Assembly: GCA_026014565.1 (NCBI GenBank)
Contig: JAOZIB010000040.1
Location: 1 to 51,027, forward strand
Source of the DNA: Candidatus Bathyarchaeum sp.
GTDB lineage: Archaea > Thermoproteota > Bathyarchaeia > Bathyarchaeales > Bathyarchaeaceae
Length of the DNA stretch: 51,027 nt
Direction of reading: 5' to 3'
Shown here piece by piece: positions 4,204 through 38,641 of this stretch. Positions within the stretch are counted from its first letter, which is position 1, and each line of letters starts with the position of its first letter. The position numbers and the translations under genes were made by a program. The notes under the pieces were generated by a model that had not been told where the DNA came from, searched no databases, and saw only the letters and a program-made list of their open reading frames with translations.

Positions 4204-4478
4204 ATTTCTCGCCTAATGTTTTTACGTTACAGACATAAAAACAAAATACATACTTAAGAGCCTTTACAAACGTCCGTCAATCAAAACAGTCCAGACCTGT
4301 AAAGTGTAGATTAACTGTAGGAAATGGGAGAAAAGCCCAACAGTTAATTAGCAGCTAACAAACTGCACAGGGTTTCCAAACGTTTTTAGGCTTCAAACAG
4401 GTAGCCACTATTATTCAGTTTCAGTCGAAACAAAACAGGTATCACATAACTTGTGTGCCGTAAGTAGTGATTAACAAA

Positions 4479-10250: not shown

Positions 10251-10329
10251 TTTTTCATGTTTTGATGGCAATCATTTTAAGTAACTATCTTGGAGTAACG
10301 GTAATTATCTGGTTAACGCGTGCTTGCCA

Positions 10330-11307
10330 ATGATAACAATAACAAACTTGTTGGTGGCAGTTGGAGTTCTAATTGTAGCGCTGGTGCTCGACCTGATTTT
10401 TGGCGACCCGTCACCAATTTATCCCGAAAAAATCCAATACAAACTGCACCCCACGGTTTTGATGGGAGAATTCACCCAAAAAATCAAGCCCTTCTTCAAA
10501 AACCCCAACCCAAAAATCGAAAAATTCAACGGCGTTCTTTTGGGGTTAACAGTCATTTTGGTTTTTACAATTCCAACCTATTTCGGTTTGCAGATAATCT
10601 ACCGATACCTTGGACTGATAGTTTTTTTCATTGTTTCTGCCATAATTTTGAAATTAACAATTTGTATGAAACTTGAAACAGATTGGGGATACGCCGCAGC
10701 AAAAGCCATCGAATCAGGCGACCTCGCTGAAGCAAGAAAGTACGCCCACTTTTCACGACGTGACAACAAAGAACTAACCGGTGCACAGATTGTTTCTTCA
10801 GTCATTGAATCATTGGCAGAAAACTTGACAGATTTCAGGCTCTCCCCAATTTTCTATTATGGACTGTTTGGTGTTCCAGGGGCAGTTGCGTTTCGGGCGG
10901 TTAACACCCTTGATGGTATGGTTGGCTTCAAAGATGAAGAAAACATAAATCTTGGATGGTTCTCCGCCATTACAGACACCATAGTAAATTACATTCCAGC
11001 CCGGTTGACTACCCTTTTGCTGATTGCAGGTGCCGCAATAGTAGGAGAAGACTACAAAAACGCATGGAAAATTGCCCAACGAGACCAAAGCAAAATCCCC
11101 AGTACAAACCATGGATGGCAAATGGCAGCAATCGCAGGTGCGTTACGAGTGGAGCTGGAAAAACCTGGACAATACGCAGTAGGCGACCCAGAAGAAGAAC
11201 TGGATGCAAATAAAATAATTCAGTCGTTAAAAATCCGAAATGTTGCAATAATTCTGAGTATAATCATCACCATACCAGCGATTTTGCTAAATCTTTACTT
11301 ATTTTAA
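10330..11307 (+). CDS. cbiB: Adenosylcobinamide-phosphate synthase CbiB
   Basis: CbiB joins adenosylcobyric acid to aminopropanol or its phosphate to make adenosylcobinamide (phosphate), late in cobalamin synthesis at the membrane. The protein of about 325 aa shows the family pattern: FGDP followed by LHPTVLMG near the N-terminus, SVIESLAENLTD in the middle, VNTLDGMVGFK, and NHGWQMAAIAGAL with a late AVGD. Hydrophobic segments lie at both ends and in the centre. ATG 10330 is preferred, with TTG 10324 also possible. It lies 79 nt after the amidohydrolase. CobS and CbiZ, which act on neighbouring intermediates, are at 34.3 and 28.6 kb. Confidence 0.92.
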   Translation: MITITNLLVAVGVLIVALVLDLIFGDPSPIYPEKIQYKLHPTVLMGEFTQKIKPFFKNPNPKIEKFNGVLLGLTVILVFTIPTYFGLQIIYRYLGLIVFFIVSAIILKLTICMKLETDWGYAAAKAIESGDLAEARKYAHFSRRDNKELTGAQIVSSVIESLAENLTDFRLSPIFYYGLFGVPGAVAFRAVNTLDGMVGFKDEENINLGWFSAITDTIVNYIPARLTTLLLIAGAAIVGEDYKNAWKIAQRDQSKIPSTNHGWQMAAIAGALRVELEKPGQYAVGDPEEELDANKIIQSLKIRNVAIILSIIITIPAILLNLYLF

Positions 11308-16798: not shown

Positions 16799-18208
16799 AT
16801 GAACGTGCCCAGAGTTGTTATCGCAGGTCTTTACGGTGAAGGAGGCAAAACAACAGTTGCCACCGCGCTTATGGGAGCTCTGGTCAAAAAAGGCTTAAAC
16901 ATCCAAACCTTCAAATCTGGACCCGACCACATCGACGCAACTTACCATAATTATGCAACCAAAAAACAGTCACGGCACTTGGACGCTTGGCTTACGTCCC
17001 AAAGAACGGTTCTAGAAAGTTTTCAACGAACAGCAAAAAACGTTGATTTAGCAGTTATTGAAGGAGCAGGAGGCATCTTTCAAGGAATTCCCCGAGAAAT
17101 CGATGGAGTCAAAGACTTTGAAGGCACCGCTCACATTGCCCGATTGTTACGGGCGCCTATTGTTTTGGTTTTGGACATTGGCAGTTTGTGGATGCACCGA
17201 GCCGAAGTAATCCACGCCCTAATGAACACCTTCAAAGTGTTAACCAAACAAATCGACCTCAAAGGCATCGTGATAAACAACGTCACAGGCTGGCAACAAG
17301 AAACATGGGTCAAAAAAGCCGTGGGTTCTGCCACTAAAGTTCCAATTCTAGGTATGATTCCATACAACCCAAACATTGTAATGCCTCCCAGACGAGGAGG
17401 TCTGGTTCCGGTTCATGAACAAGAAGAATTAAAAAAAACAGTTGTACAACTAATTGATCATGTAACAAAACACATTCAAGTAAACAAAATTTTAGAAATC
17501 GCAAAACAAGCCAAAGAACTCCCAGACATCGAGCCAAAAGTTTACCCAATCACCAAAAAACAACAAACAATTAGAATTGCAGTAGCCTTTGACGAGGCAT
17601 TTAGTTGCCACAATCCCGACAACCTTGACCTTTTGGAAGCATACGGCGCGGAAGTTGTTTTTTTCAGCCCAGTTAACGACAAAAAGCTTCCAGAAAACAT
17701 TGATGGTCTATATTTTCCGGGGGGTTTTCCTGACAGGCTTGCTGAAAAGTTGTCTACCAACCAAACTATGTTGAAAAAAGTCAAACAAGCAGTCTATGAT
17801 GAAATGCCAGTATACAGTGAACAGGGGAGTTCAATGTATTTGACAAAATCAATAACTGATTTTGAGGGTTCCACCGTTCCCATGGTTGGGGCGATTGCAG
17901 GCAAATCTAAAGTCGGCTGGAAAATGCAAGCCTTAGATTCTTCTCGGATGGAGGCAATTACCGACAACTTGCTGACTCCGAGAGGTTCGGTTATTCAGGG
18001 GAACGATTTTCGCTTTTTCAAGATTTATGACCTTCCCAAGGATACAGAGTTTGCTTACAAGATGAGAATCGGAAAAGGAGTCAACGGCACCAACGAGGGA
18101 ATAAGGGTAAACAACCTGTTGGCGATGGTTGGGCTTGTTTATTTTGCCTTTGACACTAAAATTGCCCAAAATTTTGTTAGCTACGCGGAAAAGTATCACC
18201 GCAAATGA
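16799..18208 (+). CDS. CbiA-family protein with a degenerate glutaminase domain
   Basis: CbiA makes cobyrinic acid a,c-diamide using ATP and glutamine; relatives amidate Ni-sirohydrochlorin (CfbB). This 469-aa protein has the N-terminal ATPase domain (GLYGEGGKTTV at 10-20, FKSGPDHID at 38-46, IEGAGG at 87-92). Its C-terminal class I amidotransferase fold has DNLDLLEAYGAE and LYFPGGFPD. The glutaminase Cys, normally in YAECGGLMYL, is Gln here (YSEQGSSMYL, Q342). The His of GHEFHYS is also gone (GNDFRFF). It therefore cannot release ammonia from glutamine by the usual chemistry. It may use free ammonia, a partner glutaminase, or do another ATP-dependent reaction. The gene name is withheld for that reason. 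Confidence 0.8.
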   Translation: MNVPRVVIAGLYGEGGKTTVATALMGALVKKGLNIQTFKSGPDHIDATYHNYATKKQSRHLDAWLTSQRTVLESFQRTAKNVDLAVIEGAGGIFQGIPREIDGVKDFEGTAHIARLLRAPIVLVLDIGSLWMHRAEVIHALMNTFKVLTKQIDLKGIVINNVTGWQQETWVKKAVGSATKVPILGMIPYNPNIVMPPRRGGLVPVHEQEELKKTVVQLIDHVTKHIQVNKILEIAKQAKELPDIEPKVYPITKKQQTIRIAVAFDEAFSCHNPDNLDLLEAYGAEVVFFSPVNDKKLPENIDGLYFPGGFPDRLAEKLSTNQTMLKKVKQAVYDEMPVYSEQGSSMYLTKSITDFEGSTVPMVGAIAGKSKVGWKMQALDSSRMEAITDNLLTPRGSVIQGNDFRFFKIYDLPKDTEFAYKMRIGKGVNGTNEGIRVNNLLAMVGLVYFAFDTKIAQNFVSYAEKYHRK

Positions 18209-18954: not shown

Positions 18955-20247
18955 ATGAAAAAGTCTAGCCCAGAAACAAAAAACGAAAACAGTTACGACT
19001 CCCGAGAGAGTTGGCCCCCTTACACTTACCGAGATTGCGCAAACATCGCGCCAGAAACCTACGAAGCATTCATGGAGTTTTTGTCCACAGAAAACACCAC
19101 AAACAAGGTCATGGAACTTCAACCTTGGATTTCCTTTTGTGACTCCCGCTGCACGTTTTGTTATTATCCGAACAATCCTTACTCACCCAGCATGATGGAG
19201 CCCTACCTTAAGGCGCTAAAAAAAGAGTTGATGATGTACGCCAACACAAAATATGTGCAAACCAGCGAGTTTGACGAAATCGTTTTGGGTGGCGGAACTC
19301 CCAGCCTCATGACCAAGGATCAAATGTTTGATTTAATCAAATTCTGTGAAGACAACTTCACCACAGTTGACGGCTACTTTATCAAAATCACGGGGTCGTC
19401 CCGAAGTTTCTCCAAAGAAAAACTACGTGCCGCCGCAGACTATGGAGTCTACCAAGTTGACATGGGAGCACAAACCTTTGATAACAAACTTAGGAAAATG
19501 CTCAACCTGCCCGACAGCGCTGAACATGTGGCAGAAGAAATCAAACTAGCCCGAAAGTTGGGTATGTGTGTTTGTATTGATATAATGTATAACATTCCGG
19601 GTCAAACTTTGGAGAGTTGGGTTGATTCAGTAAAGAAAGCCATCGAACTAGACGCAGAAGTGGACGCCTATTGCCTTGAAGTAAGCCCGGGAACGGTTTT
19701 GCACAAACAACTTCAAGAAGGGAAAGTTCCGCCTCAATGTGGCAAAGAACTCGAAAAAGAAATGTACGTTAAAGCTTACGAACTATTCAAAGAAGCAGGC
19801 TACACCCCCATCGGGCACGACCGATACTCACGGGATGAATGGCACGCTAAAGAGAACTGTCTTAATGGGTGGCCATGGTCAGGAATTTTAACTACGGGTG
19901 CAGGTTGTTTTATGGGTTATCTGCAAAGATTTTCCTATTCAAACATCGAAAACGCGCAAGAATACATCAACGCAGTAAATGAAGGAAAATTCCCAATTGC
20001 AAGGCTTTCAGAGTCCACACAAAAAGAAATGATGCAAAAAGTAATGACCAAACTTTACCTGCGTTTACCAATAATCAAAGCAGAATTTCAAGAAAAGTTT
20101 GGAAAATTACCTGAAGACGTTTACCCCGAGCAACTAAATAGGCTACAAAAGAAGGGTCTAATCGAAATCAACGACCAAGAAATCAAACTAACCGAACTCG
20201 GAGATCTGTGGAAAGCCAACATAGCATGGGAATTCACAGAAAAATAA
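18955..20247 (+). CDS. HemN/HemW-like radical SAM protein
   Basis: This 430-aa protein has the cluster motif C62-x3-C66-x2-C69 (FCDSRCTFCYY), then VLGGGTPSLM, QVDMGAQTFD and DIMYNIPGQT. These are the HemN-family SAM-binding and substrate-loop landmarks. A C-terminal winged-helix-like domain (LPEDVYPEQLNRLQKKG) matches the HemN C-terminus. Relatives include coproporphyrinogen dehydrogenase, the heme chaperone HemW and the anaerobilin synthase ChuW. The fourth Cys of classical HemN (CxxxCxxCxC) is absent, so plain coproporphyrinogen oxidation is doubtful. A paralog sharing WPPYTYRD and LQPWI is at 37358-38641. It is followed by a hairpin terminator. Confidence 0.82.
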   Translation: MKKSSPETKNENSYDSRESWPPYTYRDCANIAPETYEAFMEFLSTENTTNKVMELQPWISFCDSRCTFCYYPNNPYSPSMMEPYLKALKKELMMYANTKYVQTSEFDEIVLGGGTPSLMTKDQMFDLIKFCEDNFTTVDGYFIKITGSSRSFSKEKLRAAADYGVYQVDMGAQTFDNKLRKMLNLPDSAEHVAEEIKLARKLGMCVCIDIMYNIPGQTLESWVDSVKKAIELDAEVDAYCLEVSPGTVLHKQLQEGKVPPQCGKELEKEMYVKAYELFKEAGYTPIGHDRYSRDEWHAKENCLNGWPWSGILTTGAGCFMGYLQRFSYSNIENAQEYINAVNEGKFPIARLSESTQKEMMQKVMTKLYLRLPIIKAEFQEKFGKLPEDVYPEQLNRLQKKGLIEINDQEIKLTELGDLWKANIAWEFTEK

Positions 20248-20445: not shown

Positions 20446-21507
20446 TTATTGTTCTCTTAGCAGTTTAGGTATGTAAGCGCAAGCTGGATCAGATTCGAAT
20501 AGATCGCCGGTGTATATTTCTGCTCGGGTTCGGCAGCCGCCACAGATTTCTCGGTATTCGCAGACTCCACATTTGCCTTTGATGTTGTTGCGGTTTTGAA
20601 GTTTCTTGGTAAATTCTGAGTCTTGCATTTGGTGCCAGATTTCGGTCATGGTGTTATTTTTGATGTTGCCCATTCGGTAGCCTTCGTTGAATCCGCATGG
20701 TCGAATGTCGCCGTTTTCTAGTAGGCCCATGTATCTGCCTCCAATGAAACATTGGCCCAAGAAAACATTGTTGAACCAGTAATCAAAATCAGGCATTCCA
20801 CGCTGTTTAGCAATTCTGGCAAAGAATGGACAGTAAACGTTGATGCTCATTTTGTTTTGGTATTCCATCATTAAATCGTAGATGTGGTTAAAAGTTACTT
20901 CATATTGTTCAGGAGTAGGCGCTAATTCTAGATGTTCTTGTGCCCTACCAACTGGAATGTAGTTATGATAAACCACTCTAGTAGCATTGTATTTGTAGCC
21001 AATTTCAGCAATGTGGTCAACTTCTGAACAGTTGTTCTTGTTAAGAGTTGAAACGATACAATCAAAAATATTGCCATCAGACAGATTCTTCATTGCCTGA
21101 AGGGCAATTTTGTAGCTTCCTTTTCCGCGGGTCATGTCGTTTGTTTTTTCTGTACCTTCAAGGCTTACTGCAGTCATGACCTCGTTTCGGATTAGTTTGT
21201 CCAGAATGTCACCTTTAACGTAGTAGCCATTTGTAATCAGGCTCACGTTCATTCCAAGGCTTTTGGCGTGCTCAATAATTTCAAAAATATCTTTACGAAC
21301 AAGGGGTTCGCCACCGCTTAGTCCAAACCATTTTGCACCCATAGCATATAGGTCGTCAACGATTTTTTTTCCGCCTTCAGTGTCGATTTCGTTAATGGCG
21401 TAGGGATTTGATGCAAAACTGCAGTGTAAACAGTTATAGTTACAGGCCCTTGTGCATCTCCAAGTCATCATATACAGACGGGGTCTGTTCCATGCGGTTT
21501 GCGCCAT
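20446..21507 (-). CDS. SPASM-domain radical SAM protein (AhbC/AhbD/NirJ-like)
   Basis: This 353-aa paralog of 7529-8623 has cluster cysteines C22, C26 and C29 (RACNYNCLHC) and the GGEPLV motif. Its C-terminal SPASM cysteines read GKCGVCEYREICGGCRTRAE...DPAC. Such proteins modify porphyrin side chains (AhbC, AhbD, NirJ) or peptides. The GKCG.C...CGGCR pattern is like the heme enzymes, but no other ahb gene is here. A TATA-like TTTTTAAATAATT at about 21523-21535 implies a short leader. It is encoded convergently with the HemN-like gene. Confidence 0.82.
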   Translation of the reverse strand: MAQTAWNRPRLYMMTWRCTRACNYNCLHCSFASNPYAINEIDTEGGKKIVDDLYAMGAKWFGLSGGEPLVRKDIFEIIEHAKSLGMNVSLITNGYYVKGDILDKLIRNEVMTAVSLEGTEKTNDMTRGKGSYKIALQAMKNLSDGNIFDCIVSTLNKNNCSEVDHIAEIGYKYNATRVVYHNYIPVGRAQEHLELAPTPEQYEVTFNHIYDLMMEYQNKMSINVYCPFFARIAKQRGMPDFDYWFNNVFLGQCFIGGRYMGLLENGDIRPCGFNEGYRMGNIKNNTMTEIWHQMQDSEFTKKLQNRNNIKGKCGVCEYREICGGCRTRAEIYTGDLFESDPACAYIPKLLREQ

Positions 21508-26099: not shown

Positions 26100-26846
26100 A
26101 TGAAAGTTAGTTTGGTTCATATGCAAATCAGCGAATCTCCCGACGAGAACATAAAAACTGCAGAAAGAATGCTATACAAAGCCGCCGATGAGGGCTCTAA
26201 ACTTATTTGTTTGCCAGAATATTTTCCGTTCCCTGCAAGCGTAGAAGACCAAAACGAAATCGAAACAATATCAGAGCAGACCCACGAACCAGCAGTTAAC
26301 ATGTTAAAGAGCGTCTCGAAAGATGTTGACGCTTACATTGTTGGAGGCACAGTTTTTGAAAAATTCAGGGATAATTACTACAACACGAACTTGTTTTTGA
26401 AAAATGGAAAGATACTGGGAAAATTTCACAAAATGCATCTTACGGATTGGGAAAAACGGGTAGGATTGCATGTTGGTAGCAGCTTCAAAGTTTACGAAAC
26501 CGAATACTGCAAAGTTGGAATCCTGATATGTGCAGACGTTTTCTATCCCCGAACAGTTAAAAGCTTGGTTTCTAGGGGCGCAGAAGTTATTTTCCTACCT
26601 GTTTCTGCCTCAAGAACCCACCCCCACGTAAAAGGTCACCCCATTACCACCAAACGGGCAGAAGAAAACAAAATTTTCATTCTGAAAAACGGCAACACAA
26701 GATCCCGATCCAAAGGAGGAAACAGCGCCATAATTTCCCCATGGGGAATGCTCAGCCACGCAAAAGACGAAATAAACACAAAACTTGTTTCCGCAGAGTT
26801 GGACATTACCAAACTGCGAAAATTCCGACGAGCAACAGCAGAATAA
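26100..26846 (+). CDS. Carbon-nitrogen hydrolase (nitrilase superfamily)
   Basis: This 248-aa single-domain protein has a complete catalytic triad: E40 (CLPEYF), K111 (GKFHKMHL) and C144 (GILICADVFYP). Such enzymes hydrolyse nitriles, omega-amides or N-carbamoyl groups; the length and motifs resemble omega-amidase and N-carbamoylputrescine amidase relatives. The start ATG at 26100 gives the standard family N-terminus KVSLVHMQI. It is convergent with the paralog A gene (26866-27756). Supplying ammonia to the glutaminase-dead CbiA-like protein is conceivable but unsupported. Confidence 0.83.
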   Translation: MKVSLVHMQISESPDENIKTAERMLYKAADEGSKLICLPEYFPFPASVEDQNEIETISEQTHEPAVNMLKSVSKDVDAYIVGGTVFEKFRDNYYNTNLFLKNGKILGKFHKMHLTDWEKRVGLHVGSSFKVYETEYCKVGILICADVFYPRTVKSLVSRGAEVIFLPVSASRTHPHVKGHPITTKRAEENKIFILKNGNTRSRSKGGNSAIISPWGMLSHAKDEINTKLVSAELDITKLRKFRRATAE

Positions 26847-26865: not shown

Positions 26866-27756
26866 TTATTGCCCGTAGATGTGTTCCCAGTTTTCGATGA
26901 TTGTGTTCATATTATCAAAACCAAATTCGTCCAGCCATTTTCGGTAGTTGGTGTCGTTTATTGCAGTTTTGCAGATGTCTTTGGCTCGTTGTACGTCGTG
27001 GACCAAAAGCAAAATTGCTTCTAGATTATAGTTTGAAAGATAGGCAACAGTTCGAAGAAGTGCTTTAGTTTCTACGGGTCGAGGAATTTCTGCACTTAAT
27101 TCAATGAACATTGGTTTTTTCAAAAGTTTCAGAAAATCGCGGGTTAAGGTGTCTGCCCAGTACATGGTCACATAACTGCTACTAGACAAAGGAACATGGA
27201 AATAATCCACATGTTCTGCAATGGCATCAAAGTCTAGACCAAAGCGTTCTTTTGCACAAACAGGGTCGGGCCAGATTTCTACTCCAAAAGGTTGAGAGAC
27301 TAATTCTTTAGCTCTTGCTACAAAATCTGTTACTGTTTGTGCTCTCCATTCTAACCAATCAAGGTCGCTTTCTTTTTGTTTTTTGGAGCATCCATCACAT
27401 GTACAGAATTTTTCTTCCGGAAAATGATACAAACAAAGGGTTACGCCTTCGACGTCTTCTTGGGCGGTTTGTTTGATGAAGCCTAGAACGTGGTTTTGGT
27501 ATTCTTCGTTTGTTGGGCAAACAAAATCCCAAGGCAAAGTTAGAGCCTTGTTTGCTCGGGTTGCCGGACCAAAAGGCGAAAGGGCCACAAGTTCAGGTCG
27601 TTTTCGTAGAGTTTTTGCGTCAACAAAGCAGGTGATGTCGTTGTACATGCCTTTTGCGGGTTTTCCTAGCACACCATCGACACGTTTTGAATAATAAACT
27701 GAAATGTCATAGCCTTCAACAATGGTAGGCTCATAAATTACGGTTCCAATCTTCAT
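26866..27756 (-). CDS. CTCxxC-motif protein, paralog A (unknown function)
   Basis: This 296-aa protein is one of three paralogs here; I do not recognise the family. All three share a start of the form (K/E)xG...YEP..VEG(F/Y)D, a central motif H111...C118-T-C120-x2-C123, then (D/E)WR.QTVTDF, PDP...RFG.DF and a C-terminal WE/WD helix. Alternating beta and alpha segments suggest a TIM barrel resembling glycoside-hydrolase-like or methyltransferase barrels. The Cys/His group could bind zinc or an Fe-S cluster. This copy is the most diverged and is transcribed away from the other two. A TATA-like AATATACT near 27795-27802 and GAGG before the ATG fit a normal start. Confidence 0.7.
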   Translation of the reverse strand: MKIGTVIYEPTIVEGYDISVYYSKRVDGVLGKPAKGMYNDITCFVDAKTLRKRPELVALSPFGPATRANKALTLPWDFVCPTNEEYQNHVLGFIKQTAQEDVEGVTLCLYHFPEEKFCTCDGCSKKQKESDLDWLEWRAQTVTDFVARAKELVSQPFGVEIWPDPVCAKERFGLDFDAIAEHVDYFHVPLSSSSYVTMYWADTLTRDFLKLLKKPMFIELSAEIPRPVETKALLRTVAYLSNYNLEAILLLVHDVQRAKDICKTAINDTNYRKWLDEFGFDNMNTIIENWEHIYGQ

Positions 27757-28256
27757 TCGATTAGCCTCTTGAGTGCGTGATGGCTGTAATTTAGTATATT
27801 TGGACTATTTTAATTTGGTTCCAAAAAATGTGGAATTTTACAGCAGAAATCAGATGTCTTACGATTTATTTACTGACTGTATTTAAATAATTGCACTAAT
27901 TTTTTGTAGATTTTTTAAAATTTTTTGGTTAACAAGGCATTTATGTGAGAAACAGACTAAGAATTTAGTGTGGCAGGGGACAAATAGCTGTTTGTAACGG
28001 AATTACAGTTAGTAGCTACGTCAAATCAGACCAGTTGGTTTTGGCTAACTGAACCTGAACCATAATTGACTAGCACAACTAACCGAAACAGAGAGGTAGC
28101 GTGTAAATCCTCCAACACCGGACAAAGCTATCCTATGGCCAAAGGAGCACGCAGAGCCATATTACCTTGCCATCACAAGAATTTTAACCATTAAAGCAAT
28201 AGGCAATCATCTTTAACTTTAAATCCAATAACGGAATAATTACTTGACATTAAACC
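27757..28256. other. 500-bp intergenic region with tandem hairpins
   Basis: No ORF is supported. It holds the promoter of paralog A on the minus strand, a candidate structured RNA (27986-28167) and a TATA-like CTTTAAAT near 28217-28224 for the ferredoxin gene. Confidence 0.5.
27986..28167 (+). ncRNA. Candidate structured RNA with three hairpins
   Basis: There are three helices. The first pairs TAGCT with AGCTA, with GTAA/TTAC nested inside (about 27986-28020). The second is CAGTTGG/CTAACTG at 28032-28038 and 28045-28051. The third is a compound stem of AGGTA/TACCT (28094-28098, 28163-28167), GCGTG/CACGC (28099-28103, 28148-28152) and CTCC/GGAG (28110-28113, 28144-28147). It does not match RNase P, SRP RNA, tRNA or the cobalamin riboswitch consensus as I know them. 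A TATA-like GTATTTAAATAAT lies at about 27878-27890. It could be an independent RNA or a leader of the ferredoxin-cbiZ genes. The strand is an inference. Confidence 0.35.
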
Positions 28257-28268
28257 TTGGTGCAAAAT

Positions 28269-28457
28269 ATGAGCATAAAAATTGACTATGTCAAATGCAA
28301 AGAATGCGACGATTACACTTGTGTTGATTGTTGTGCGATGGCCGTTTTAAGCATTGAAGACAACGTCCCAGCAATAGTTGACATGGACGCATGCACCTTG
28401 TGTGGAATCTGTGAAGACCTTTGCCAAAAAAAGGCAATAACCATTAACAGAAGCTAA
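28269..28457 (+). CDS. Small dicluster ferredoxin-like protein
   Basis: This protein of about 62 aa carries the second cluster motif CTLCGICEDLC in canonical CxxCxxCxxxC form. The first motif is irregular, CKECDDYTCVDCC, with a 4-residue gap between its second and third Cys. ATG 28269 is preferred over TTG 28257 or GTG 28260. A TATA-like CTTTAAAT at about 28217-28224 gives a plausible transcript start near 28245. It precedes the CbiZ gene by 141 nt. It may give or take electrons in corrinoid reduction, since methyl-corrinoid proteins need Co(I) reactivation; this is inference. Confidence 0.8.
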   Translation: MSIKIDYVKCKECDDYTCVDCCAMAVLSIEDNVPAIVDMDACTLCGICEDLCQKKAITINRS

Positions 28458-28598
28458 ACAATTTTTTGTAAGGTCAATTTTGGTTTGTGGCATAAATAAC
28501 AAAAGCAAGTTCCACTGTAGAAATCCCCTGAAACTAGAAATGAAACATCCAAGCATCTTGGCATCATTTCTGACAAAACAAGAGAAGGAAAATAACTA

Positions 28599-29747
28599 AT
28601 GAAACTGGAAACCAACATCGATTCTGTTGAAGCAAAAATTCAAGACAACAAACTGATTTTGAAATCAAAGGTCCCTTTGAAAATACTTAGTTCAGCGGTT
28701 TTAAACGGCGGCACACAGGAAGCAAACTGCATAGTGAATGTTCAAGTGGATGAATCCACAGGAAGTGATGTTGACGATGAGGTTCACAGGGATGCCAAAG
28801 ACTATTTGTTGGATGAAACAGCAAAAACTGGAATCCCAAAAGACAATGTTGTTGCCATAATGACTGCTGCGCGGATGAAAAACGTAGAAGCAATTACAGA
28901 AAAGTTTCATGACCTCACCTTAACAACCTTTGTTACTGCAGGGGCATATTTTGCTGCGACTCCAGGAGATGAAGTGGCATCTAAACAGATTGCCTTTCCT
29001 CCAAAGAAATGGGGAACCATCAACACAATCATGGTAATTGATGCAAACCTTACCGAGAGTTGTATGGTTAACGCCATTGTTTCAGCAACAGAGGCAAAAG
29101 CATCAGCATTAAGGGAGCTTGACCTTCGAAGCCGTTTTTCAGGAGAAATCGCCACTGGAACAGTAACAGATGGCATAGTAATAGCATGCACAAAACGGGG
29201 AAACCCAATAAAATACGCAGGCAGCGGCACAGTAATGGGAGAACTAATTGGAAAATCAGTGAAAGCCGCCCTCAAATCAGCCATTTTCAAACAAGAAAAC
29301 ATGTACTCCAACCGCTTGCTCACAAGAAGATTAGAAGAAAGGGGAATAACAGTTGAAAACTTGACAACTTTGTTTTCCCAGATTCGTCCAGTTCTTAGAA
29401 ATTACCCTGAAAAAAGGGAGTTGTTCATTAAAGAATTCAAGGAAGCTTTGGCCGACCAAAATGTCGCAACTTTAATTGTTGCGGGATTGCGGCTGGATGA
29501 GGATGTGAAGTCTAATTTGATTCCGGAAAGCCCAAACAGCAAAGAAACGGACAGTTTTGTTCTTCACAAGATTTTGCAAAAGGCGGTAACTGATTACATG
29601 TCAAAAGAACATTCAGAATTCAAGTTTATTAGACCAGATTATTTGAGTTCCACCTTTTCTGATAATATGGGATGGTTTACCCGGAGTGTACTTTCTGCGG
29701 TTATGCATTCTGTTTATTTACGGATTGTAGAAAAACAAAAAGACTAA
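28599..29747 (+). CDS. cbiZ: CbiZ-type adenosylcobinamide amidohydrolase with C-terminal extension
   Basis: CbiZ removes aminopropanol from adenosylcobinamide to give adenosylcobyric acid, which CbiB re-uses; this is archaeal corrinoid salvage. The family signature is clear: SSAVLNGG (31-38), MTAARMKN, WGTINTIM, SATEAKASALRELD (162-175), ATGTVTDG (185-192) and YAGSGT.MGELIG. The CbiZ domain covers about residues 1-235. Residues 236-382 are an extra, mostly helical region I cannot place. It follows the ferredoxin gene and precedes paralogs B and C. CbiB (10.3 kb) and CobS (34.3 kb) complete the route. Confidence 0.85.
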   Translation: MKLETNIDSVEAKIQDNKLILKSKVPLKILSSAVLNGGTQEANCIVNVQVDESTGSDVDDEVHRDAKDYLLDETAKTGIPKDNVVAIMTAARMKNVEAITEKFHDLTLTTFVTAGAYFAATPGDEVASKQIAFPPKKWGTINTIMVIDANLTESCMVNAIVSATEAKASALRELDLRSRFSGEIATGTVTDGIVIACTKRGNPIKYAGSGTVMGELIGKSVKAALKSAIFKQENMYSNRLLTRRLEERGITVENLTTLFSQIRPVLRNYPEKRELFIKEFKEALADQNVATLIVAGLRLDEDVKSNLIPESPNSKETDSFVLHKILQKAVTDYMSKEHSEFKFIRPDYLSSTFSDNMGWFTRSVLSAVMHSVYLRIVEKQKD

Positions 29748-29813
29748 AAACCATTATGGGGCATTAATAATGCGTTGTTTGGCTTTCGTCTGATTATGTC
29801 GCAATCCTTATAG

Positions 29814-29828
29814 CTTACTTTAAGTAAG
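29814..29828. promoter_or_regulatory. Perfect palindrome upstream of paralog B
   Basis: CTTACTT-T-AAGTAAG is a perfect 7-bp inverted repeat directly after a TATA-like CCTTATAGC (29806-29814) and about 26 nt before the TTG start of paralog B. The position fits an operator overlapping the transcription start. Confidence 0.45.
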
Positions 29829-29854
29829 TTCTCGATTCTGAAGAGGAATTAGCT

Positions 29855-30757
29855 TTGAAGTTTGGAATGTTCATTTATGAACCTACTCCTGTTGAAGGAT
29901 TCGACCTAGAAGTATACCGTCTAAAATCAGAACGAGGAATTGTTGGAAATCCAAATCCTGATATGACAACTAACATTGCCTGCTTCGGCGACAACAACAT
30001 GGCAGAACAACACCCCGACTGGGTTGCACAATCTGCCCATGGACCTGCACTGCGAACAAACAAATACTATAACCTACGCTGGGATATCGTTTGTAATCAA
30101 GAAAAACAAATGATTGATTACATGCTTGACTTAATCGAAAAAACCGCAGATTACACCAAAGGAATCACTGTTAGCAGCATGCACGTAGCAGATCACGGAT
30201 TTTGCACCTGCCCAAGATGTAAAGCAGCCCACGCAAAAAGTGGAATGGACTTGCTAGATTGGAGGGCACAAACAGTAACAGATTTCATCGGTGCAGCAAA
30301 AGAACGCGTAAAAAACAAACCATTCTATGTTGGTTTGCTTCCTGACCCAGTTAACTGCCGTGAACGATTCGGCTTGGACTTTGACGCTCTAGCAGAATTC
30401 GCAACCGCCTTTGTTGTACCCCACTGGTCAAAGACATATGCAACTCCATGGTACTTTGAAACAATGGCCCGTTCATTTAAGAAACTACTCAAAAAGCCAG
30501 TGTATCCAGGTCTTTACATTCAAGGACCAGGAGATGACCCCAACGAACTAGAAAACCACACTCAACTGCTCAAAACAGCATGTCGTATCGCCCGAACTGG
30601 TGTAGATGGACTTATTTTCCTAGCCGCAAACGCTCAAATCATGAAAGACTTCCAAAGAACATGTGTCGAAGACAGAGAGCTTCGCGAATTTTTGGATGGA
30701 TATGGCGGCAAACCAGTCTTAGATCTGGTTGACAAGTGGGAAAGTATACTAGACTAA
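29855..30757 (+). CDS. CTCxxC-motif protein, paralog B (unknown function)
   Basis: This 300-aa protein uses a TTG start: GAGG lies about 9 nt upstream, and the resulting MKFGMFIYEP aligns with the paralog starts. Conserved features are H110, H114, C117-T-C119-x2-C122, W136-R (LDWRAQTVTDF), PDP at 163-165, RFGLDFDAL and the late GLYIQGPGDDP. The sequence suggests a TIM-barrel-like fold with a Cys/His metal or cluster site near the middle. No signal peptide is seen, so it is probably cytoplasmic. It is about 100 nt downstream of cbiZ and is followed by a strong hairpin, so it may be a single-gene unit. Function is unknown; a role in methyl transfer is suggested only by context. Confidence 0.72.
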   Translation: MKFGMFIYEPTPVEGFDLEVYRLKSERGIVGNPNPDMTTNIACFGDNNMAEQHPDWVAQSAHGPALRTNKYYNLRWDIVCNQEKQMIDYMLDLIEKTADYTKGITVSSMHVADHGFCTCPRCKAAHAKSGMDLLDWRAQTVTDFIGAAKERVKNKPFYVGLLPDPVNCRERFGLDFDALAEFATAFVVPHWSKTYATPWYFETMARSFKKLLKKPVYPGLYIQGPGDDPNELENHTQLLKTACRIARTGVDGLIFLAANAQIMKDFQRTCVEDRELREFLDGYGGKPVLDLVDKWESILD

Positions 30758-30766
30758 ATCTGTATT

Positions 30767-30785
30767 GTGCGCCTTTTTTGCGCAC
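30767..30785 (+). terminator. Hairpin terminator after paralog B
   Basis: A GTGCGC/GCGCAC stem with a CTTTTTT-type loop lies 9 nt after the stop and is followed by a T-rich stretch ending in seven Ts. It is almost the same hairpin as at 1198-1215. Confidence 0.6.
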
Positions 30786-30931
30786 TTTCACATTTTTTTG
30801 AATGAAACCAATTGTGTGGTTATTAAAACAACTGAAAGAGGTGTGAATTTACAGACATTCACATCCACATAACAAAATATGTCTTGTTTAGCTTAGAACG
30901 TTGATGTTGCAAAGTTTTTGGGTAATGAAGC

Positions 30932-30944
30932 AAAGCTTATATAA
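30932..30944 (+). promoter_or_regulatory. TATA box of paralog C
   Basis: GCTTATATAATC is close to the archaeal TATA consensus and lies about 45-55 nt before the start codon of paralog C. It predicts a leader of roughly 20 nt with the GAGG ribosome-binding site. Confidence 0.5.
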
Positions 30945-30986
30945 TCTGCATAGAAGTATTTTGCAGTTTTAAAACGAGGAATGAGG

Positions 30987-31889
30987 ATGGAATTCGGCAA
31001 TTACCTTTATGAACCAAAGAAAGTTGAAGGATTTGACTTTGATGTATACAGACTAAAACCAGAAACAGGCAGACGTGGAACTCCACAAAATGACATGTGG
31101 AACAACATTGCAGTTTTCGGCGACAACGTAACTGGCCGTGCTCACCCAGAATGGATTTCTGAGTCTGCACGTGGACGAGGTGTACGAGGAAACAATCAAT
31201 TTAACCTGCACTGGGACATTTTGTGCCCAACAGTTCCAGAATTCAGAGAAGAACAACTAGACTACATAGAGAAAACAGTAGAAGCAACAAACCAGCCTAT
31301 CTTCTTGAACAGCTGGCACTTTGCTGACCACGGACACTGCACCTGTGAACGCTGCCAAAAACTCTGGAAAGAAAGCGGACTTGAATGGTTCGAATGGCGC
31401 AACCAGACAATCACAGAATTCATCAAAGACGTAAAAGACCGTGTAAAAACCAAATTAGTACTAGCAGTTCTACCTGACCCTGCAAACGCAGACCAACGCT
31501 TTGGTATGGACTTCCCTGAACTATACAAGATCTGTGACGCATTCAACATCGTAATGTTCTCCCAAAACTATGCAACTTCCTGGTATTGGGAAATGCTTGC
31601 ACGTGCATTCAGGAGAATCTTCCCAGAAAAGCCAGTGTACTCTAACGTTTACGTATGTGGTCCAGGCGATGACCCAAACAACTGTCCAACAACCGAGCAC
31701 TTGATCAGACTTTCTGTTCGTGTGATGCGAACTGGAATTGATGGCATCGTCTACCTTGCAGACGTTGCAGAGAACATGGTCAAATTCCAAAAAGCCGTAA
31801 CAACAAAAGGCGAATACAGAGACTCCCTAAGTGACTACGGCGGACAAGCAGCTCTCGATCTGTTTAACAGATGGGACAGTTTGTTCTAA
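30987..31889 (+). CDS. CTCxxC-motif protein, paralog C (unknown function)
   Basis: This 300-aa protein starts at ATG 30987, not 30981: GAGG at 30976-30979 is well spaced for it, and MEFGNYLYEP then aligns exactly with paralogs A and B. It keeps H111, H115, C118-T-C120-x2-C123 (HGHCTCERC), WFEWRNQTITEF, LPDPANADQRFG and GPGDDP. It is closest to paralog B. It has its own good TATA box, and a UUCG-loop terminator follows. Together with the biased, C-ending codons this suggests strong expression. The family and function are not recognised. Confidence 0.72.
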   Translation: MEFGNYLYEPKKVEGFDFDVYRLKPETGRRGTPQNDMWNNIAVFGDNVTGRAHPEWISESARGRGVRGNNQFNLHWDILCPTVPEFREEQLDYIEKTVEATNQPIFLNSWHFADHGHCTCERCQKLWKESGLEWFEWRNQTITEFIKDVKDRVKTKLVLAVLPDPANADQRFGMDFPELYKICDAFNIVMFSQNYATSWYWEMLARAFRRIFPEKPVYSNVYVCGPGDDPNNCPTTEHLIRLSVRVMRTGIDGIVYLADVAENMVKFQKAVTTKGEYRDSLSDYGGQAALDLFNRWDSLF

Positions 31890-31916: not shown

Positions 31917-31937
31917 AAGAGGCTTCGGCCTTTTCTT
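31917..31937 (+). terminator. UUCG-tetraloop terminator after paralog C
   Basis: An AGGC-TTCG-GCCT stem-loop, extended by A/T and G-T pairs, is followed directly by a long T-rich tract. It lies about 30 nt after the stop codon. Confidence 0.7.
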
Positions 31938-31985: not shown

Positions 31986-32555
31986 TTATTGTGCTTTGTA
32001 ACTTCTGATCAAAGCCAACACTACTAAAATAACAACAATTAAAGTCAAAGTAGGAAGGGTTGTTGACAGAGTTAATCCAAGTGAGCTAAAGCTCAAAAAC
32101 AGCCCCATCAAGGTCGTTAAAGCAAAGCTCAGTCCAATAGAGAAGGTAATTCTTTCTATGGGGTCAAGGGTTGTTTGTTTGGGGAACAAAGTTTTTGTTA
32201 AGCAGTATCCAGGCAAGAATGCAACTAGAACAAAAGCGAAAATGTATCGTATGTAAGATGCGGGCATTTGGTTTTCGGGAATGAAAACAATAGAAACAAA
32301 AGACAAAGCAGATACAGCCAAGATAATCCAAAACCAGTAATTGTTTTTTGCAGAAAGGAATTGCACGAAGTTCAGCTTGGGGCGAGTTGGCTCGTCAAGG
32401 GATACCAATCCTTTTTTGTGAAGTTTTTTGATTTCGGCTTTGATTTCATCCAAGCTTGCGTCAACTTGGTTTTGAACTAAGTGAACTAGCTGTTCCACGT
32501 TTTCGGGTTGTTCAGTTTCCAAAAGATCCAAGATTACAGATTCTAGCAGTGTCAT
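31986..32555 (-). CDS. DUF1616-like membrane protein with N-terminal helical domain
   Basis: Residues 1-60 of this 189-aa protein look like a helix-rich, winged-helix-type domain (LVHLVQNQVDASLDEIKAEI). They are followed by about four transmembrane segments (75-93, 105-125, 137-160, 165-185). The signature FLPGYCLTKTLFP...LDPIERITFSIGLS is characteristic of DUF1616 proteins, which are common in archaea and sometimes linked to surface or glycan genes. Function is unknown. It lies downstream of mtrH on the same strand but after a terminator, so it is probably separate. Confidence 0.7.
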   Translation of the reverse strand: MTLLESVILDLLETEQPENVEQLVHLVQNQVDASLDEIKAEIKKLHKKGLVSLDEPTRPKLNFVQFLSAKNNYWFWIILAVSALSFVSIVFIPENQMPASYIRYIFAFVLVAFLPGYCLTKTLFPKQTTLDPIERITFSIGLSFALTTLMGLFLSFSSLGLTLSTTLPTLTLIVVILVVLALIRSYKAQ

Positions 32556-32690
32556 TTGTGCACCAGCTTTCTTTATCGTCAGGTCTGCATAAAAAAGTAA
32601 TCTTGTTTTTAGGTTTAAGGTAACAGAAAATGCCCTGAAATCCAGATATTCTAAAACAAAACCATGATTTTAAGAAAAGAAAAAAGGAAA

Positions 32691-32708
32691 AATGGGCAAT
32701 AGCCCATT
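32691..32708 (-). terminator. Intrinsic-type terminator of the corrinoid protein-MtrH operon
   Basis: On the minus strand AATGGGC-TATT-GCCCATT is followed by TTTCCTTTTTTC. It starts about 20 nt after the MtrH stop codon. Confidence 0.7.
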
Positions 32709-32728
32709 GGAAGGTTTTTTTGTTGGGT

Positions 32729-33646
32729 TTAACCGACTAGTTTGAATAGTGGGTGTTTGCCTTCTTCGTAGGGGCGTGTTCCTAGGTCTGCTGTTGCAGT
32801 TAGGATGTAGGTGTCAATTACAGCTACCGCAGGGAAAACATATTCTGCGAATTCGATTGGCCCAAACATAATCCAGTCTGCGCCAAGCATTGGCAAAATT
32901 GCGTTTTGTGCTGCGTCAGTTGCTTTCTTGACCTGTTTAGAGAAGTTGCCTTTAACCCATCCGAGTGTGTCAGAAACGTTTCCGATTCCAGTTCCTACGG
33001 CTCCGATGTCACCATATTTTTCTTTGATAACTTTGATTGCTTGAAGACCTGCACCTACACCAATGCCCCATGCGGACATGGATGTGTCAATGAGCATGCC
33101 TTCGATTCCAGCTTTTTCTGCCAGAGGCAATGCAGCTTCCAGTGCAGATAGCTTTCCTGCAACAGTATCGTCTGTTGGGTTGTCACACAAGACAATTGAA
33201 GCTTTTACGCCACATTCTTTTAGGTTTTCTAGTTCTTTGTCTTTAACGCCTTTGTAGATAGAGTTGTTAACGATTCTGTTGGCCAATCCAACTTCTGCGG
33301 CCCATTTGACTGCTTCCATTCGGAGTTTTGGGCTGATTGCGTCAATTTGGATTGGTGCATCAGTTACTTTTGCGACAAATTCCATGTATCTTTGGAAAGA
33401 TTCAACTGAAGTTCCGACAACGTCCACAATGAAGGGGTTGGTTGTCATATCAGAAAGAACATCGAGTCTGTTGATTAGGGCTTCAGCTTTTTCTTTGTCG
33501 AAAAGGCCTTGTTTTTTGTCGGTTACAATTTTTTGTCCAATATAAAAGATTGAAGCAGTTAGAACAGTTGGACATTCTCCAGGCTGTCCACCGAGTTTTA
33601 TTCCTCCGGCTTCTACAATTTTTTGTGGTTTTTCGAATCTGTACAT
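32729..33646 (-). CDS. mtrH: MtrH-like methyltransferase (corrinoid to tetrahydropterin)
   Basis: MtrH transfers a methyl group between a cobamide and tetrahydromethanopterin. This 305-aa protein has the MtrH hallmarks: IKLGGQPGECPTVL near 17-30, TSVESFQRY, IDAISPKLR, ANRIVNNSIYKG and GVGAGLQAIK. The length is normal for the family. No other Mtr subunit (A-G) is present, so it is not the energy-conserving membrane complex of methanogens. Instead it follows a soluble corrinoid protein gene by 44 nt in the same direction, as in methyl-corrinoid systems of non-methanogens. It probably feeds a methyl group from an unknown donor into, or out of, the C1 pathway. Confidence 0.88.
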   Translation of the reverse strand: MYRFEKPQKIVEAGGIKLGGQPGECPTVLTASIFYIGQKIVTDKKQGLFDKEKAEALINRLDVLSDMTTNPFIVDVVGTSVESFQRYMEFVAKVTDAPIQIDAISPKLRMEAVKWAAEVGLANRIVNNSIYKGVKDKELENLKECGVKASIVLCDNPTDDTVAGKLSALEAALPLAEKAGIEGMLIDTSMSAWGIGVGAGLQAIKVIKEKYGDIGAVGTGIGNVSDTLGWVKGNFSKQVKKATDAAQNAILPMLGADWIMFGPIEFAEYVFPAVAVIDTYILTATADLGTRPYEEGKHPLFKLVG

Positions 33647-33690
33647 TTATTGCTCACTTCGAAAGTTAAGTCGACGTTTATCCGTCGAGC

Positions 33691-34119
33691 TTATTTGGAT
33701 GCCATTGCTTTTTTGGCGATGGCTACTGCTTCTTCTCGAGTTTCGCCGAATAGTGCACCGATTTCTTCTGCGTCGTCTTCGTCGACTGCTGCGCCGCCGA
33801 TCATGATTACGACTTTGCCTTTGAGGCCTGCGGCTTCAATTTCTTGCATTAGTGCAGGGATGTTGTTTTTTGCTGGAGCAGTGTTGATTGAAACTGCGAT
33901 GATGTCTGCATTAACTTCTTTTGCTTTGTTAGCAAAGTCTGCTGCTGGTGCTTTTTTGCCTACGTCGTAGCATTTGAATTCGGCTTTGGTGAGTGATTTT
34001 CTTACCATTTCTTTAGGGGTTAAGTGTACGTCGGGGTCAAGTGTTCCGATTACTACAATTCCAATTGGGTTGTCAGATTCTTCGGGTTCTTTTTCCATCA
34101 TAGATTTTAACCAAGACAT
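33691..34119 (-). CDS. Small corrinoid (B12-binding) protein
   Basis: This 142-aa protein is a stand-alone cobalamin-binding Rossmann domain. It lacks the N-terminal helical cap of MtaC/MtbC-type proteins. The lower-ligand motif DxHxxG reads D30-V-H32-L-T-P35: the cobalt-binding His is kept but Gly is replaced by Pro. Ser77 in VSINT and the GG of IMIGGAAVDED (108-109) are present. Its gene is first in an operon with mtrH and divergent from cobS. It probably carries the methyl group for MtrH. A GGATGGAA ribosome-binding site precedes the ATG. Confidence 0.82.
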   Translation of the reverse strand: MSWLKSMMEKEPEESDNPIGIVVIGTLDPDVHLTPKEMVRKSLTKAEFKCYDVGKKAPAADFANKAKEVNADIIAVSINTAPAKNNIPALMQEIEAAGLKGKVVIMIGGAAVDEDDAEEIGALFGETREEAVAIAKKAMASK

Positions 34120-34292: not shown

Positions 34293-35036
34293 ATGTTGAT
34301 AATCAAAGGATTGAAAGGATTATTTGGTTTTTTGACGATTCTGCCCATCGGAATGGAGTCCATGGAAGCTCTTTCCAAGTATTTTTTCCTGACCCCCATA
34401 GTAGGCATAGTTTTGGGTGCCCTTGCAGGAACCTTTGGTTATGTGGTGGACATGTTTTTGCCTCAACTGATTTGTGGTTTTCTTGTTTTGGTTGTTCTAG
34501 AACTGTTAACGGGTTTTCATCACATGGATGGGCTACTGGATTTTAGTGACGCCGCCATGGCACGTGGGGACACCAAGAAAAGATTAGAAATTATGCATGA
34601 CATGTACACGGGTGCGGCTGCTGTTACGTCGGGGGTTATTGTTGTGGTTTTGGGGGGTTTGTGTTTTGGTAGTTTTTCAGGCTTGAATATTATAAAAGTT
34701 GCAATAGTTGCAGAAACCCTAGCAAAAGAAAGCATGGTCCTAATGGCGTACTTGGGCAAAAAGCCAAGTTACAAGGGTTCAGGTCATTACGTGGTAGAGG
34801 CCATGGAAAACAAGCATGCTCAAGCCTTTGCGTCCGTAATTCTTTCTGCTGTGGTTGGGTTTGTTTTGATTGGTGTCTGGTTTGCTGTTGTTTTGGCAGC
34901 CATGGGAATTTGTGTGTGGATTTTGACTAGCTTTTCTAACAAAACATTGGAAAGCGTCACAGGAGACGTTATGGGGGCAACCCATGAAATTACAAGAATT
35001 GTTGTTTTGATTGTGTTGATTGCTGTTATGTTGTAG
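34293..35036 (+). CDS. cobS: Cobalamin 5'-phosphate synthase CobS
   Basis: CobS joins adenosyl-GDP-cobinamide and the lower-ligand nucleotide at the membrane, the last committed step of cobamide assembly. The 247-aa protein has about six membrane segments. Its family motifs are LLTGFHHMDGLLDFSDA (about 71-87, matching the LTGGLHLDGLADTxD consensus) and ESVTGDVMGATHE (matching GGxTGDxLGAxxE). It is divergent from the corrinoid protein-mtrH operon across 173 bp that carry TATA-like boxes both ways. The two may therefore be co-regulated. Confidence 0.92.
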   Translation: MLIIKGLKGLFGFLTILPIGMESMEALSKYFFLTPIVGIVLGALAGTFGYVVDMFLPQLICGFLVLVVLELLTGFHHMDGLLDFSDAAMARGDTKKRLEIMHDMYTGAAAVTSGVIVVVLGGLCFGSFSGLNIIKVAIVAETLAKESMVLMAYLGKKPSYKGSGHYVVEAMENKHAQAFASVILSAVVGFVLIGVWFAVVLAAMGICVWILTSFSNKTLESVTGDVMGATHEITRIVVLIVLIAVML

Positions 35037-37357: not shown

Positions 37358-38641
37358 CTAAAGTTTTTTGTTTGGTTGGAAAAACTCCCAGCAGATGTTT
37401 ATTCTCCAGATATCGCCTAATTCAGTTAGTCTAATTTCTTTGTCGTCAGTTTCAACTAATCCTTTGTTTACCAATTTGGTAATGGTTTTTCCAAAGGCTT
37501 CTTCGGGCAATTTTCCAAATTTGTTTTTGAATGCCCTTTTGTTGACTGGACGACGAATCAGCAAGTTCATCATCATTTTTCCCATTTCATCTTCAACGGA
37601 GGGAATCCAAAGTTTTGAGATTGGAAACTTCCCTTTCGAAACTGTATCGATGTATGAATCAGACGAATCTACATCTGTGTATGAGAATTTTCCAATATTC
37701 CCCATAAAGAATCCGGCCCCTGTACCTATCACTTCCATACATGGTTCTTGAAAATCTTCTTTTATTCTGGAAAATCGGTTATGACATGTTTTTTTGTATC
37801 CTGCCTTTTTGAAAATTTTTTGGGTTTCTTGGTACATTTTAGTCTCAATTTCTTCTCTTGCTTTTAGCGGCAATTTGCCTGACTGAATTTGATTATATAA
37901 TTCAGTTTCAGGAAGTAGTTCTAATGCATAACAGTCTGCACTTTCTACATTCAAATTTAAGGCTCTTTGAATGTCGTCACTTAAGATTTCTAATGTCTGA
38001 CCTGGAAGATTAAAAATTAAATCGACACTTACCCTAAGCCCCAATTTTCGGGCAGTTTTTATTGTTTTTTCTACTTCTGTTGCTTTTTGTCGAAGATTGA
38101 GTATTTGTCGTAAATTATCATCAAAGGTTTGAACCCCTAAATCAAGTTGATTGACTCCATATTCAGAAAGGGCTTTTAGTTTTTTGTAGTCAAAATCGTG
38201 TGTGCATCCTGTTATTTTAATTTCTTTTACATCACTCATGTTGAAGTTTTTTTCACAGAAATTTAGAAGATCAATTGTCTGGTCAACAGACATTAGGCTT
38301 GGAGTTCCACCTGCTAGGTAAATTTCCGAAAAATCAGTTGTTTGAACATATTTTGTGTTAGAATAATGCAAAAGACATTTTTTTAGAGATTCAAGGTAAT
38401 GCTCGATTTTGTTTTTTGAAATTATTTCCGTAGGAAAATAGCAGAATGAACACTTGGAATTACAGAAAGGTATCCACGGCTGTAGCTCTTTTCTTGTTTT
38501 ACTTACATTTTCTGTTTGTAAAAGTTCTTCAAATTCTTTAAGCGTTTTAGGATTAGCCTCAGGGTAGTCCCTGTATGTGTAGGGAGGCCAATGCATAGAC
38601 TTTGAATAAAGAACTGTGTTTTGGTTTTTTTTACTTGTCAT
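37358..38641 (-). CDS. HemN/HemW-like radical SAM protein
   Basis: This 427-aa paralog of 18955-20247 shares HWPPYTYRDYPEANP at the N-terminus, LQPWIPFC with C60-x3-C64-x2-C67, LAGGTPSLM, QLDLGVQTFDD and DLIFNLPGQT. It has the same C-terminal winged-helix region. The fourth Cys of canonical HemN is missing here too. The pair forms a distinct clade-like type, probably not true coproporphyrinogen dehydrogenases. A porphyrin or heme ligand is plausible from the family (HemW, ChuW), but peptide or lipid substrates cannot be excluded. It is A/T-richer than its paralog. Confidence 0.82.
   Translation of the reverse strand: MTSKKNQNTVLYSKSMHWPPYTYRDYPEANPKTLKEFEELLQTENVSKTRKELQPWIPFCNSKCSFCYFPTEIISKNKIEHYLESLKKCLLHYSNTKYVQTTDFSEIYLAGGTPSLMSVDQTIDLLNFCEKNFNMSDVKEIKITGCTHDFDYKKLKALSEYGVNQLDLGVQTFDDNLRQILNLRQKATEVEKTIKTARKLGLRVSVDLIFNLPGQTLEILSDDIQRALNLNVESADCYALELLPETELYNQIQSGKLPLKAREEIETKMYQETQKIFKKAGYKKTCHNRFSRIKEDFQEPCMEVIGTGAGFFMGNIGKFSYTDVDSSDSYIDTVSKGKFPISKLWIPSVEDEMGKMMMNLLIRRPVNKRAFKNKFGKLPEEAFGKTITKLVNKGLVETDDKEIRLTELGDIWRINICWEFFQPNKKL

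Follow-up and report, generated by a model that had tools for sequence, protein, structure and literature searches.

We examined a 51,027-nucleotide contig (the window, JAOZIB010000040.1 of assembly GCA_026014565.1) of Candidatus Bathyarchaeum sp., whose genome is close to Bathyarchaeum tardum; in a scan of species genomes, records of strain M17C were the closest relatives by locus among the matches listed. The window contains three genes of similar length, A, B and C, together with a ferredoxin, a nitrilase-superfamily amidase and several genes of cobamide metabolism (Table 1). All three open reading frames were confirmed, and their products share the motifs YEP..VEG, CTCxxC, WR.QT(V/I)T(D/E)F and PDP...RFG.DF that a preliminary description of the locus had reported. 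Searching the genome with C recovered B (E 1e-90), A (E 3e-49) and a fourth copy, D, on contig 18. By sequence, A, B and C are true paralogs and chance likeness is excluded.

Table 1. Features of the window, with positions on the forward strand.
Feature	Position	Strand	Evidence and remarks
RnfD/NqrB-like membrane domain fused with a 4Fe-4S dicluster domain	1250-2572		
Four B12-binding radical SAM proteins in one stretch	4467-5960, 5980-7326, 11918-13315, 15207-16598		
CbiB	10324..11307	+	PF03186 2.2e-73
Tetrapyrrole genes: CbiB, CobB/CfbB-like a,c-diamide synthase, two HutW/HemW-like radical SAM, AhbD/NirJ-like radical SAM, CbiS, CobS	10324-11307, 16799-18208, 18955-20247, 20446-21507, 28599-29747, 34293-35036, 37358-38641		Tetrapyrrole-rich window
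Nitrilase-superfamily amidase, convergent with A	26100..26846	+	PF00795 1.2e-33
Paralog A, GH-like TIM barrel with Cys4 site	26866..27756	-	296 aa; ORF; AlphaFold2 mean pLDDT 95.5; fold matches PgaB GH153 and others; subfamily clade SH-aLRT 99
A-ferredoxin gap	27757-28268		~510 bp in window and G002, ~70-125 bp in most relatives
2[4Fe-4S]-type ferredoxin, divergent from A	28269..28457	+	62 aa; HgcB/PorD-like profile matches (weak)
CbiS, fusion of CbiZ (cobinamide amidohydrolase) and CobZ (alpha-ribazole phosphatase)	28599..29747	+	PF01955 9e-53; NF038002 9.6e-45 and TIGR03161 8e-14, both below cut-off
Paralog B, GH-like TIM barrel with Cys4 site	29855..30757	+	300 aa; TTG start; ORF; AlphaFold2 mean pLDDT 96.5; fold matches PgaB, Cwp19, GH164, GH42
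Hairpin GTGCGC-N7-GCGCAC after B	30767..30785	+	Read directly from sequence
Paralog C, GH-like TIM barrel with Cys4 site	30981..31889	+	302 aa; ORF; homology to A and B; DUF4838 1.8e-4 (below cut-off)
Terminator-like hairpin after C	31917..31934	+	Hairpin scan
DUF1616, MtrH-like and small corrinoid protein cluster	31986-34119		Near A in 19/38 loci examined; persists where A and B are lost
MtrH-like methyltransferase	32729..33646	-	PF02007 8e-84; TIGR01114 above cut-off
B12-binding corrinoid protein	33691..34119	-	PF02310 5.8e-14
CobS, cobamide synthase	34293..35036	+	PF02654 1.9e-38; TIGR00317 above cut-off

The preliminary description had recognized no named family, and a strong hit to a characterized one would have overturned it. 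No Pfam or NCBIfam model matched A, B or C at its cut-off, and no convincing match to PDB sequences came from searching with either C or the family profile. As judged by profile searches, the family is new to the libraries used (Pfam and NCBIfam). Weak matches of its members were to DUF4838, GHL6, GHL10 and DUF4015, mostly hypothetical glycosyl hydrolases, with some homologs reaching E 1e-8 for DUF4838/DUF4015 (32 members scanned).

The family is confined to one archaeal class in the genomes surveyed. At least 79 loci were found across 84,980 species genomes, all in records titled Bathyarchaeota, Bathyarchaeum, Bathycorpusculum, or Crenarchaeota/Nitrososphaerota MAGs. Among 398 genomes drawn across the phylum, the 28 positives all fell in the window's class, Bathyarchaeia, and the family profile matched in 64 of 257 class members (one or two weakly). 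No homolog outside Bathyarchaeia appeared among the matches listed in the species scan or in the phylum-wide sample. A, B, C and D form separate groups in the tree, the A clade well supported and B at just 82. Members of A, of B and of C all occur in both family f1 and family f7, so the duplications predate these families.

Main-lineage loci repeatedly show the arrangement nitrilase(+), A(-), ferredoxin(+), CbiS(+), B(+). A divergent ferredoxin with eight Cys adjoins A in 57 of the 58 loci with enough sequence, and CbiS lies within ~8 kb in 38/38 A loci and 37/40 B loci. C adjoins B in family f1; in most of f7 it lies elsewhere, mostly at loci without corrinoid genes. The nitrilase gene occurs in 27/28 family-positive genomes vs 0/73 family-negative relatives, even where it is unlinked to the family (G063, G039); the sole exception, G016, is 69% complete. 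CbiZ was found in 28/28 positives vs 8/73 negative relatives (Fisher p = 1e-23 for nitrilase and 4e-18 for CbiZ, shared descent ignored). In these comparisons genomes G030 and G088, which match C only via large GHL6-type proteins, were counted as family-negative. These partners, and the cobamide-salvage context that they suggest, were missed by the preliminary description, whose overall reading is supported in part. An additional ~430 bp separating A from the ferredoxin was considered as a repeat and rejected, being single copy in the genome.

Five f7 genomes and G005 keep CbiS without A, B, C, the linked ferredoxin or the nitrilase. Because the five f7 genomes form one clade in the CbiS tree and G005 stands apart, the whole set has been lost about twice. 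The MtrH-like gene, like CbiS, is kept in genomes that lost A, B and C. Retention of CbiS where the family is absent indicates that CbiS can act without it. We also considered a substitute gene in the family-negative genomes and rejected it: the neighbors there (an asparagine-synthase-like protein and an M48 peptidase) are homologous to the usual neighbors, which argues for loss rather than replacement.

Linkage to corrinoid genes recurs in four lineages. Outside the main lineage, G125 and G140 each encode a single homolog ~10 bp downstream of a gene for a BtuF-type binding protein; behind the homolog come genes for a radical SAM protein, BtuC and BtuD, and the divergent operon carries CobY-CobS-CbiS-CobT-CbiB. 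G536 has the order BtuF-homolog-BtuC-BtuD, with CobQ and CbiB in a divergent operon and CbiZ close by, and in G460 the homolog is divergent from a gene for a PduO-type cobalamin adenosyltransferase. These are separate arrangements, all pointing to corrinoid import and salvage. The radical SAM protein directly 3' of the family member in the BtuF-BtuC-BtuD operon lies at L166:10648-11412 and L167:10438-11202. Another possible corrinoid-linked enzyme is an asparagine-synthase-like protein bearing a zinc ribbon at its C terminus, which is found next to the A-cluster position in f7 as well as close to the BtuFCD/CbiS cluster in G125 (L166:15920-16843; L154:10567-11556).

Expression signals fit the earlier reading only in part. 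Each gene had been credited with its own promoter-like signals, but sigma-70-like sites showed no excess over chance (11 found vs 14.9 ± 4.0 expected); sigma-70 is not used by archaea, and C has a TATA-like box, CTTATATAAT, ~36 nt upstream. The terminators described after B and C were recovered as hairpins, and the region holds more terminator-like hairpins than expected (17 vs 8.5 ± 2.6), among them ones at the ends of A and C. High or separate expression is not borne out by these signals, and B is probably co-transcribed with the ferredoxin and CbiS, given that the three genes share a strand with gaps of 141 and 107 bp. An Rfam search found no cobalamin riboswitch near the genes; one tRNA was the only match.

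The AlphaFold2 models of A and B are confident, and Foldseek matched both to glycoside hydrolase TIM barrels (PgaB GH153, Cwp19, GH164, GH42 and GH36). In these models the fold is a TIM barrel nearest glycoside hydrolases, in agreement with the barrel proposed earlier. The homologs have no evident signal peptide and should therefore act in the cytosol. We assessed residue conservation in an alignment of 32 members and in a second, larger set comprising 149 non-redundant homologs. In the latter, Cys80 and Cys-X-Cys-X2-Cys (117/119/122) are practically invariant, with C119 (B numbering) at 99%. Invariant residues in both sets (B numbering) are G15, K24, G28, D46, S60, G63, N69, C80, C117, C122, S129, P163-D164-P165, R171, G173, Y195 and W295. 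The A subfamily adds E160, H111, H187, E219 and E223 (A numbering). No metal-ligand set of the phosphodiesterase type is common to all members. Of the H...C-T-C-x2-C motif described earlier, for which loss of the Cys/His residues in orthologs was to count as refutation, the Cys part holds in the 149 homologs, but the His, present in all A and B, occurs in only 71% of C and is Gly in D.

The Cys residues resemble a known metal site. When the family was aligned by profile with a GHL6/Glyco_hydro_42M protein (719 aa) from a related archaeon (L032), the HPdW-type segment, one Cys and the CxCxxC were in register: C80 aligned with a Cys before a helix and C117/C119/C122 with CYCESC. The same Cys plus CxCxxC pattern occurs in the sequences of GH42 beta-galactosidase and the alpha-L-fucosidase 6TVK. 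In Gal42 (GH42) the zinc site is Cys113/153/155/158, and the Cys-bound zinc of GH42 serves to stabilize the domain, without being involved in the catalytic cycle (PMC8573354). A/B/C carry this GH42-type pattern. Zinc held by their four Cys is a reasonable guess, and by analogy the site is probably structural. Of the two roles proposed earlier for the Cys/His set, zinc thus suits the Cys residues, whereas a catalytic cluster is less likely, since the match is to the structural Zn site of GH42/GHL6-type hydrolases.

The catalytic position of the barrel has changed. The beta4 Asp of the L032 GHL6 protein lies in FLD; at the corresponding place 93% of A and all C have Asn, all B have Ser, D has Glu and the window's own A has Cys. 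An Asp at the end of beta4 is kept only in the distant BtuFCD-linked and PduO-linked homologs.

We propose, with a probability of about 0.6, that A, B and C are Bathyarchaeia-specific cytosolic GH-like TIM barrels, with structural zinc on four Cys, that work in cobamide uptake and salvage (remodeling). That the family has a role in corrinoid salvage at all is likely, and we hold it with good confidence. Placing a new lower ligand on an imported complete cobamide requires opening or removal of the nucleotide loop. In our model, a cobamide would be imported via BtuFCD, and the barrel would bind the imported corrinoid and open its nucleotide loop, upstream of CbiS. The CbiZ domain of CbiS would then cut the amide, and CbiB, CobY, CobS, CobT and CobZ would reassemble a cobamide carrying a different lower ligand. 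Electrons for reducing cobalt ahead of adenosylation could come from the dedicated ferredoxin. Computation shows the family, its fold, the conserved Cys and the linkage to corrinoid genes; zinc, corrinoid binding, the bond cut and the ferredoxin role we infer. The loop-opening step is proposed by analogy with CbiR of Akkermansia, an AP endonuclease 2 superfamily TIM barrel that cleaves many cobamides at the nucleotide loop, giving AdoCbi-P; CbiZ of R. sphaeroides cuts pseudocobalamin but not cobalamin (PMC7733943). Opening of the loop is the likeliest chemistry, but nucleotide-loop hydrolysis by the family is a tentative suggestion. Equally speculative is the fuller scenario in which Bathyarchaeia turned a GH-derived barrel into a new cobamide nucleotide-loop hydrolase that arose independently of CbiZ and CbiR and forms a remodeling module with its own ferredoxin and nitrilase-type amidase. 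Several points count against the salvage reading: most f7 C copies lie away from corrinoid genes, CbiS persists in genomes that lack the family, the members have no common phosphodiesterase-type metal-ligand set, A-C have lost the GH beta4 Asp, and the three-fold paralogy is left without explanation.

The main rival assigns the barrel and ferredoxin to preparing imported corrinoid for adenosylation, by removing the upper ligand and/or presenting Co(II) for reduction to Co(I), preparation of the kind that CblC carries out in animals. The near-invariant pairing of A with the ferredoxin and the PduO adenosyltransferase divergent from the G460 homolog speak for it, but the GH-like barrel has no recognized redox cofactor, and a look at the surroundings of the distant homologs on L166, L167 and L171 turned up no adjoining ferredoxin; we consider it unlikely. 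A non-enzymatic corrinoid chaperone or sensor retaining the GH fold would account both for the corrinoid gene linkage and for the fact that A-C have lost the catalytic Asp of GH strand beta4. The invariant polar residues K24, D46, S60, N69, D164, R171 and Y195 look like a working site, however, and we find this role rather improbable.

The gene neighborhood also raises the idea that A, B and C are substrate:corrinoid methyltransferases (MT1) serving the corrinoid protein and MtrH-like enzyme encoded next to them. MT1 enzymes have a TIM-barrel fold, and an MtrH-like gene lies within ~8 kb of half the A loci (19/38) and in 27/28 family-positive genomes. Yet 11 family-negative genomes have MtrH-like genes as well, and the distant homologs sit in B12-import operons without MtrH; this persistence and these operons weaken an MT1 role, as does the lack of any match to MT1 families (MttB, MtaB or UroD type) among Pfam/NCBIfam models, and we disfavor it as very unlikely. 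Finally, the fold and the weak matches to GHL6, GHL10 and DUF4838 would suit ordinary glycosidases, unrelated to corrinoids and near their genes by accident. Such an accident is scarcely credible given the repeated, independent linkage, the lost catalytic Asp in A-C and the absence of any conserved carbohydrate-related gene nearby.

Anoxic sediments harbor abundant Bathyarchaeia, which use methyl transfer that depends on corrinoids; to our knowledge, little has been learned about the way archaea open imported cobamides and build them up again. The link of a barrel family to cobamide salvage is the new element here, and it provides concrete candidate enzymes for these steps that can be tested with the corrinoid assays used for CbiR. 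For the cultivated relative B. tardum, deficiencies in cobalamin synthesis have been reported, together with a possible reliance on growth factors from a methanogenic partner (PMC10477458).

No paper joining glycoside hydrolase, TIM barrel and cobamide salvage turned up in a text search of a collection of open papers. The best fold match, PgaB (GH153; TM 0.59-0.66, ~10% identity), is an exported, polysaccharide-processing enzyme. GH42 beta-galactosidases and 6TVK share one Cys plus CxCxxC with the family, in which the GH42 catalytic Glu pair is not conserved and accessory domains are absent. The Pfam families GHL6, GHL10, DUF4838 and DUF4015 share the barrel, the HPdW-type segment and the Cys plus CxCxxC in register; A, B and C differ from them in scoring below cut-off, in being a single ~300-aa domain and in the replacement of the beta4 Asp by Asn or Ser. 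CbiZ/CbiS belongs to the same pathway by context, but has no sequence relation to the family and, as CbiS, is a separate neighboring gene. CbiR, like the A/B/C family, is a TIM barrel encoded beside cobamide salvage and transport genes (PMC7733943). It differs in belonging to the AP endonuclease 2 superfamily (PF01261), to which none of the 32 family members matched at E 0.1, whereas the family described here is GH-like, archaeal and equipped with a Cys4 site.
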